Assembly (NCBI GenBank): GCA_949300145.1
Contig: CASGDA010000006.1
Coordinates: 62,001 to 126,000, forward strand
Source of the DNA: an uncultured Treponema sp.
GTDB taxonomy: Bacteria > Spirochaetota > Spirochaetia > Treponematales > Treponemataceae
DNA length: 64,000 bases
Direction of reading: 5' to 3'
Within the stretch, counting starts at the first letter, position 1. Each line of letters begins with the position of its first letter. Of this stretch, positions 8,878 through 10,505 are shown piece by piece. The notes beneath the pieces were generated by a model. It searched no databases. It saw only the letters and a list, made by a program, of their open reading frames with translations, and was not told the DNA's origin. The position numbers and the translations under genes are program-made.

Positions 8878-10131
8878 TCATTTTTTCCTCCTGCATTCCT
8901 CCGCCGCAACGATTGCCCGGAACACCGGGTAAAACTGCTGCGGCACCACTGCATTCCCGAGGCATTTCAGCCTGTCAGACCTGTGTGCCGTCCCTGCTGC
9001 AAGCCGCGGGATGTCCGGTTCCGTATCCCAGTAATGGTTGATGATAAAATCTAAGTCTCCGTCCATCCCGGAGGAAAACCCATCAGCCATTCCACCCATT
9101 CCGGATTCAGCTGCCCGCCGTCGTCCCCCGTTATTACGCCCAGCTCTTCCATCTTCTCCATCTGCCGGTAACTCCCTGTTCCCCCGCACATTGCCGCACC
9201 CGTTGACGGTGTCGGGAACAACTCCCTCATTACGTCCCCGACCAGGGAATCCCTGTTGATCTGGCTCCGGGGCAGGGCACTGTTCTTCGCGTCCTGTGCA
9301 GTCGGCGTGTTGTACATCTTTACGGCACTCGGCAGGTCCGGGCTCCGCCGTCTTCTTTCTGCGGGACAATCCCCGCGCATATGGGCTTTCGGTGTAGGGA
9401 AGAGTTTTACCTGTCCGCTCAGGCTCGGTTCCCCGCGGCTGTTCACATGCATTTTCCTTCCTGCCGAATCCGACGCAACGGGCGTTTTCCATATTCTGGG
9501 CTCCTCCCACGCCTTCACCGTAGCCGGATCCACCTGCTCCCGTAAATTCGCGGGGCGGCTCCTCCCTTTCCGGCTTCCTTCCGCCTGCCGCATGAGGGCT
9601 GCCGGAGATCTCTGCGGAAGATGATCCATGGTGTTCGGCGTAGCCCACAATAGCGGTCCTGTACCGTCTGTGCCAGGCTCCGACAGCGCAAGCTGGTATA
9701 AGAAATACCCTTGTCCTATATCCGCAGGCTTCCAGTTCAGAAAGAATACCGGGGAGTGCCATCCGCACGATTCCAGCAACGTTTTCTCCAACAACCCAAG
9801 CAGGCCTGATTTCCCGGATAACCCTGACCATTTCCGGCCAGAGATAGCGGTCATCATCCTTGCCCCTTCGCTTCCCGGCAACAGAGAACGGCTGACAGGG
9901 GAATCCTCCGGAAATAACGTCAACTGTCCTTCTTCCTGTCCTTGCATAGAAACTTTCCCCTGTAAGCGTCCTTATATCCTTCCAGCGCGGGACGTCCGGC
10001 CAGTGCCTTTCCAGCACCTTTGCCGGGTATTCCGCCTGTTCGCACTGCCCTACCGTCCTGATCCCCGCCCACTCCGCCGCAAGGTCAAGCCCGCCTATGC
10101 CGGAAAAAAGGCTTAAGTGTGTCAGCGTCAT
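8878..10131 (-). CDS. Cytosine-5 DNA methyltransferase (overprinted)
   Basis: 417 residues. Motif I FSGIGG (9-14), motif [11 protein letters not shown] with catalytic Cys79, motif VI GENV (116-118), motif [14 protein letters not shown] (154-163) and a C-terminal [12 protein letters not shown] (near 390) are all present, so the enzyme looks complete. It would methylate cytosine in phage DNA, most likely against host restriction. The target-recognition part (about 165-375) is low in hydrophobics and carries repeated short motifs (GYAEHHG, ENARCVG, YTESPYA, HADCTGR, PDTVNGC). Almost all of residues 62-360 is also read in another frame by the nested gene. ATG 10131 is chosen over GTG 10140 from GGAGG spacing. 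Confidence 0.85.
9051..9947 (-). CDS. Overprinted PTP-repeat protein nested in the methyltransferase gene
   Basis: 298 residues read in a different frame of the same strand, wholly inside the methyltransferase gene. Five spaced motifs of the type xxTPxAxx occur (WATPNTMD 101-108, WKTPVASD 153-160, FPTPKAHM 183-190, YNTPTAQD 212-219, FPTPSTGA 244-251). The C-terminus is [16 protein letters not shown] (281-296). From memory, proteins with FPEDSP starts, PTPTA repeats and a [11 protein letters not shown] ending are common among phage-derived hypotheticals. GGGGAAAG lies about 6 bases before the ATG. Function unknown. It may be a real second product or a conserved shadow of the methyltransferase. 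Confidence 0.5.
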
Positions 10132-10505
10132 ATCGTCCACCCTCCGCCGAACTCCGGCAGCGGGTTTTCTGCGCTGTAAAACATATGCAGGCAGTTTTTA
10201 TCTATGTTCACGTATTCCGCCTCCGCCGGGAAAACCATGACGGCCTTCTTGTCCGGTCCGAAAAAATCCCGCTTCACGCGCTGCAGGTCCCCGTAGTCCG
10301 GGATCCTCGACTTGCGGGAAAACGAAACGTGCAGCCATTCCTTCCCGTCGCCGTAGATCCCCGCCGTAGCCAGTACGAACAGCCCGTTGCTCTCCCACGC
10401 CTTCGTGGTCTCCCATCCCAAAAGCTCCGAAATGTCGCGCCAGTACGGCGGCGGATCCGGGAAGAATGCCGCTTCGTTTATTGCAATGTCATGGATCCGT
10501 GTCAT
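10128..10505 (-). CDS. Conserved phage protein of early cluster
   Basis: 125 residues from [19 protein letters not shown]. The core [27 protein letters not shown] followed by [16 protein letters not shown] is a pattern I associate with a small uncharacterised domain found in phage genomes. The start lies 17 bases inside the HNH gene and the end overlaps the methyltransferase start by ATGA. Its place suggests a role in DNA metabolism, but no activity can be read from it. Confidence 0.65.

Follow-up and report, generated by a model that had tools for sequence, protein, structure and literature searches.

An overprinted gene pair in a Treponema prophage likely encodes a two-polypeptide cytosine-5 DNA methyltransferase

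Why does a cytosine methyltransferase gene stay open in two frames of the same strand over 897 bases? This question arises from the window analyzed here, the whole 64,000-nucleotide stretch of DNA from an uncultured Treponema sp., in which a 298-codon open reading frame lies inside the methyltransferase gene. The original prediction left two answers: a widespread dual-coding pair, perhaps making an anti-restriction partner, or a nested family that is a systematic artefact of databases. We report that the pair is under dual selection and that its two same-strand frames, which share one piece of DNA, very likely specify a cytosine-5 DNA methyltransferase made of two polypeptides (estimated probability, about 0.87).

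Two frames and a partition of methyltransferase motifs

The outer gene, alpha, is an m5C methyltransferase reading frame (positions 8878 to 10131, minus strand; PF00145, 3e-36; PHROG_363, 1e-78). Its longest open reading frame runs on the minus strand from a GTG start at 10140 to 8878 (420 aa), although the ATG at 10131, behind a GGAGG Shine-Dalgarno sequence (10141 to 10145, minus strand), is the likelier start, with GTG 10140 also possible. Alpha contains the m5C methyltransferase motifs of PF00145, all on the minus strand: motif I (LFSGIGG, 10090 to 10110), motif IV (GGFPCQPFS, with PCQ and the catalytic Cys; 9883 to 9909), motif VI (ENV, 9778 to 9786), motif VIII (HRRYRTAIV, 9646 to 9672), and a motif X of 13 residues (8935 to 8973). 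Motifs I and VIII, like the Shine-Dalgarno sequence, were read directly from the DNA; motifs IV and VI are invariant in the alignment of relatives, as are the LGN..P residues of motif X. The host frame was expected to retain all catalytic motifs, which held for these five, but canonical motif IX is in the nested frame. By profile alignment and AF2 modeling, the recognition region and motif IX usual in single-chain PF00145 members were absent from the alpha chain. The alpha profile aligned with M.HhaI over residues 12 to 173, and beyond that only a faint motif X was recovered. In the AF2 model, residues 1 to 170 formed the catalytic domain (pLDDT about 60 to 97, mostly >85) and residues 401 to 420 the motif X helix (pLDDT >90), while residues 172 to 358, between motifs VIII and X, were unstructured (pLDDT mostly <50).

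The nested gene, beta (298 aa; 9051 to 9947, minus strand), starts at ATG 9947 in the +1 frame of alpha, such that beta codon position 1 is host position 2, and is open for 306 codons from stop to stop. Two open same-strand frames over 897 bases were present, as predicted. The assignment of beta as a gene draws on a match to PHROG_1008 (4e-32), on its relatives, and on the selection tests below. Pfam and NCBIfam contained no model for beta, its profile gave no usable match to PDB sequences, and its AF2 model, which was weak (mean pLDDT 60), gave no significant structural match in Foldseek. Three segments were distinguished on the minus strand. An N-terminal domain (residues 1 to 95; 9663 to 9947) lies over alpha motifs IV to VIII and was delimited by +1-frame identity, stop avoidance, and the AF2 model, in which residues 69 to 89 form a hairpin. 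A TP-repeat region (9207 to 9641) was recognized from omega values and from its match to single-chain methyltransferases. A motif-IX-like segment of 16 residues (9060 to 9107), near-invariant in the beta alignment, directly precedes the beta stop. The five TP motifs begin at nested residues 103, 155, 185, 214, and 246, opposite AEHH, ARCV, TESP, ADCT, and DTVN in alpha, confirming the register originally noted.

Beta also has a start region of its own, as anticipated. Of 85 representative relatives, 80 have a nested ATG at a distance of 10 to 23 codons upstream of PCQP, with an in-frame stop preceding it by a median of 3 codons. Shine-Dalgarno matches of at least 5 bases accompany 66% of nested ATGs compared to 7.4% of the 1504 ATGs found elsewhere in these genes. 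In the window the nested start reads GGGGAAAGTTTCT-ATG, a weaker Shine-Dalgarno sequence than in most relatives.

Selection on both frames

In the window alone, a +1 frame this long was found in 0.6% of 5000 synonymous shuffles (P = 0.006), and relatives were therefore needed. We gathered these twice from viral contigs, once by the outer protein and once by the nested protein. For the outer-protein set, stops were counted from motif IV to 45 codons before motif X, a region defined by outer-protein landmarks only. Across 29 clusters picked in this way, the +1 frame contained 1 stop where synonymous shuffling of host codons predicted 148.6, whereas the control frame of the same clusters contained 317 (367 expected). 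The frequent stops among relatives that would have spoken against a nested gene were thus not observed. Reciprocally, in 52 clusters picked by the nested protein, the outer frame had 0 stops across the distal two thirds of the beta gene (356.7 expected), whereas the third frame had 615 (547 expected). Because stops were avoided in both independently chosen sets, each frame is kept open for its own sake.

Substitution periodicity changes to that of the nested frame inside the overlap. Among 51 pairs, host codon positions 1, 2, and 3 differed at rates of.144,.096, and.345 before the overlap;.261,.158, and.245 inside it; and.197,.108, and.282 after it. Between the window and one relative (L176), changes at positions 1, 2, and 3 numbered 96, 34, and 28 in the recognition region and 11, 9, and 39 in the 5' part. 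We then considered omega in 27 pairs, with sites sorted by their effect in both frames. Alpha omega rose from 0.12 ahead of the overlap to 0.18 over motifs IV to VIII and 0.74 in the recognition region, then fell to 0.20 past the overlap; beta omega was 0.37 over motifs IV to VIII and 0.30 in the recognition region, relative to a baseline of 0.44 to 0.65 in single-coding DNA. In the recognition region, constraint therefore falls on the nested frame. Over motifs IV to VIII, beta omega (0.37) was not clearly under the single-coding 3' baseline (0.44), and the case for dual coding there rests on stop avoidance and on identity above shuffled controls. In 41 divergent pairs, +1-frame identity before the overlap matched that of shuffled sequences (0.203 versus 0.202) but was higher over motifs IV to VIII (0.384 versus 0.232; stops, 0 versus 158) and in the recognition region (0.249 versus 0.158; stops, 0 versus 99). 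The 3' control region also had elevated +1 identity (0.359 versus 0.212), but without stop avoidance.

The overlapping-gene selection check proposed for homologues of both frames thus found each frame constrained, by stops, omega, and identity. The overlapping pair is under dual selection, with both frames open and conserved beyond the demands of the other frame. The pair is also widespread: beta relatives were found in at least 589 viral stretches and at least 385 bacterial-genome stretches, spread over genomes of many bacterial phyla. Hundreds of relatives, stop avoidance in both frames, the periodicity shift, and the separate ribosome-binding site agree with the first of the two original answers.

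A methyltransferase divided between alpha and beta

In single-chain actinophage m5C methyltransferases, it is the C-terminal half that the beta profile matches, and PHROG_1008, the family matched by beta, covers this same half (3e-82). In the single-chain phage methyltransferases of Filuzino, Leonard, and Phasih, one frame carries the TP repeats, LTAAFPEWMMGWPAGWVT (motif IX), and motif X. Mycobacterium phage Filuzino gp68 and Gordonia phage Leonard gp5 share with the nested pair the TP repeats and, between motifs VIII and X, an NPxFxEWMMG-like motif, but differ from it in having everything in one frame, without overprinting. The same methyltransferase is encoded as two genes with a +1 overlap of 23 bases in Medusa (78/77; L263), 32 bases in Euratis (33/34; L264), and 38 bases in Chipper1996 (81/82; L265). 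Judged by sequence, these actinophage pairs would be a natural intermediate between the single-chain and fully nested forms, and the graded series of single chain, short +1 overlap, and full nesting makes the origin of overprinting directly testable. To the question of whether nested homologues ever occur without the methyltransferase frame, the answer was mixed: they were found outside the overlap, but in the cases examined always with the methyltransferase N-terminal half, in the same or an adjacent gene. Motif X was in the alpha frame and motif IX in the +1 frame at 145 of 158 loci. On one viral contig (L035:2941-4336), alpha is 230 codons long and stops after motif VIII; the recognition region, motif IX, and motif X are all in the nested frame, which has 388 codons. 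At two other loci (L165:2998-4506 and L155:2974-4476), the nested frame continues beyond the methyltransferase stop, reaching about 500 codons.

In M.EcoHK31I, the small gene lies inside the large gene in another frame, and M.EaeI is another two-polypeptide m5C methyltransferase. The larger polypeptide of M.EcoHK31I has motifs I to VIII and X and the smaller has only motif IX, with the predicted recognition domain assigned to the large subunit (PMC3404938); M.AquI is likewise a natural two-polypeptide m5C methyltransferase (PMC3404938). Compared by published motif partition rather than by sequence, the pair here resembles M.EcoHK31I in that alpha has motifs I to VIII and X and beta has motif IX. 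It differs in being a phage family and in that the recognition domain, placed by prediction in the large subunit of M.EcoHK31I (a placement that may not define the type), would here lie in beta. The split in M.AquI falls inside the variable region, and the small subunit carries motif IX as well as motif X. The window differs from this arrangement; L035 and the actinophage two-gene pairs resemble it. Because its motif partition matches that of M.EcoHK31I, the pair appears to represent an extensive phage family whose kind is known but seldom described, far larger than described in the literature searched. A phage dual-frame methyltransferase arrangement was not found described in that literature. 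The same nested frame is annotated as "internal gene," with no function stated, in Paenibacillus larvae phages Shelly (gp56), Redbud (gp51), and Lily (gp63); among the phage records examined, it is rarely annotated outside Paenibacillus phages.

We propose that alpha would supply the catalytic domain (motifs I to VIII), followed by a poorly constrained linker and the motif X helix, and that beta, starting at its own ATG inside alpha, would provide the TP-repeat region and motif IX. The TP-repeat region is probably responsible for target recognition; its placement in beta is suggested indirectly by the opposing omega values of alpha and beta and by the unstructured alpha model there. Together, alpha and beta would form a single active enzyme on the model of M.EcoHK31I, with a likely use in methylating phage DNA against host restriction. 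Beta translation, an alpha-beta complex, its methylation activity, its target specificity, and this role are inferred, the last four from homology and motif logic. If so, phage "DNA cytosine methyltransferases" of this type that are cloned as annotated would be without the motif-IX subunit and probably inactive.

Phages encode anti-restriction proteins, and beta could be translated as a separate regulatory or anti-restriction protein, leaving alpha alone as the enzyme. The start signals of beta and its N-terminal domain, which is not seen in single-chain enzymes, would fit such a protein. However, the homologues of beta are the C-terminal half of single-chain enzymes and the downstream gene of split ones, and alpha is without motif IX and without a structured recognition region, making a separate protein improbable. 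The anti-restriction partner of the original prediction found no support; judged by its homologues, the nested product is the recognition/motif-IX half of the methyltransferase itself. Slightly less probable still is that the recognition/motif-IX frame is entered from alpha by ribosomal frameshifting, rather than at the nested ATG, to give a fused protein. The same frames would then yield a near-canonical chain of motifs I to VIII, recognition region, and motif IX, and the two frames of the standard arrangement are offset by +1. Yet such a fusion would stop before motif X, and constraint on the nested frame extends to its first 95 codons as well. The ATG is also conserved, with a Shine-Dalgarno sequence, and is preceded at a median of 3 codons by an in-frame stop.

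A conserved outer protein in a GC-rich gene, together with a window-only P value no lower than 0.006, might suggest that the nested frame is a by-product of methyltransferase composition and its database family an artefact. This possibility is close to negligible and was rejected: stops are avoided in both frames (1 versus 148.6 and 0 versus 356.7) while control frames are flat, periodicity switches in the overlap, and homologues are encoded without any overlap. What might have passed for a database artefact is instead among the more widespread same-strand dual-coding phage pairs, and one in which a clear function can be proposed for each frame. Building on the two-polypeptide methyltransferase, we tentatively suggest, at somewhat less than even confidence, an ancient large family whose subunits are permanently dual-coded, in which beta residues 1 to 95 would have been born over motifs IV to VIII and the alpha linker over the recognition region, and in which hypermutable repeats within the overlap may switch off both subunits together in some lineages, making the dual-frame enzyme phase-variable.

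Repeat tracts in relatives and the prophage setting

The dual-coded gene in the window contained no simple-sequence repeat tract of the kind seen in some relatives. Such a repeat between motifs IV and X was present at 12 of 12 loci with motifs IX and X both in other frames, compared to 19 of 146 other loci (Fisher P = 4 × 10−10, with loci not all independent). In otherwise colinear sequence, L055, L048, and L054 have G10, G11, and G12, giving three frame states. Poly-G/C, (AG)n, or (AC)n tracts lie inside the overlap about 490 to 525 nt after PCQP in L021 to L036, L229, and L250 and about 257 nt after PCQP in L044 to L061; in the gut subfamily, differing repeat units (G, C, AG, and AC) occupy one site. 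Tract length rotates both frames, which suggests phase variation of both subunits at once in some relatives, although tract-length differences may also stem from assembly error.

The pair in the window lies between recombination genes (exonuclease, SSB, Erf, and NinG-like) and replication, terminase, and portal genes. The host element is a prophage (about 42 kb; GC near 0.57; G000:C6:33512-75660, window 13661) that interrupts a tail-like gene within a second phage region. Direct repeats of 17 bp (AGGAGACAGCTTCAAAA) flank it, and a single reading frame is restored when the flanks are joined. A near-identical prophage (~95% DNA identity), with both frames intact, was found in a Treponema MAG (L175) that appears to belong to the same genus as the genome of the window.
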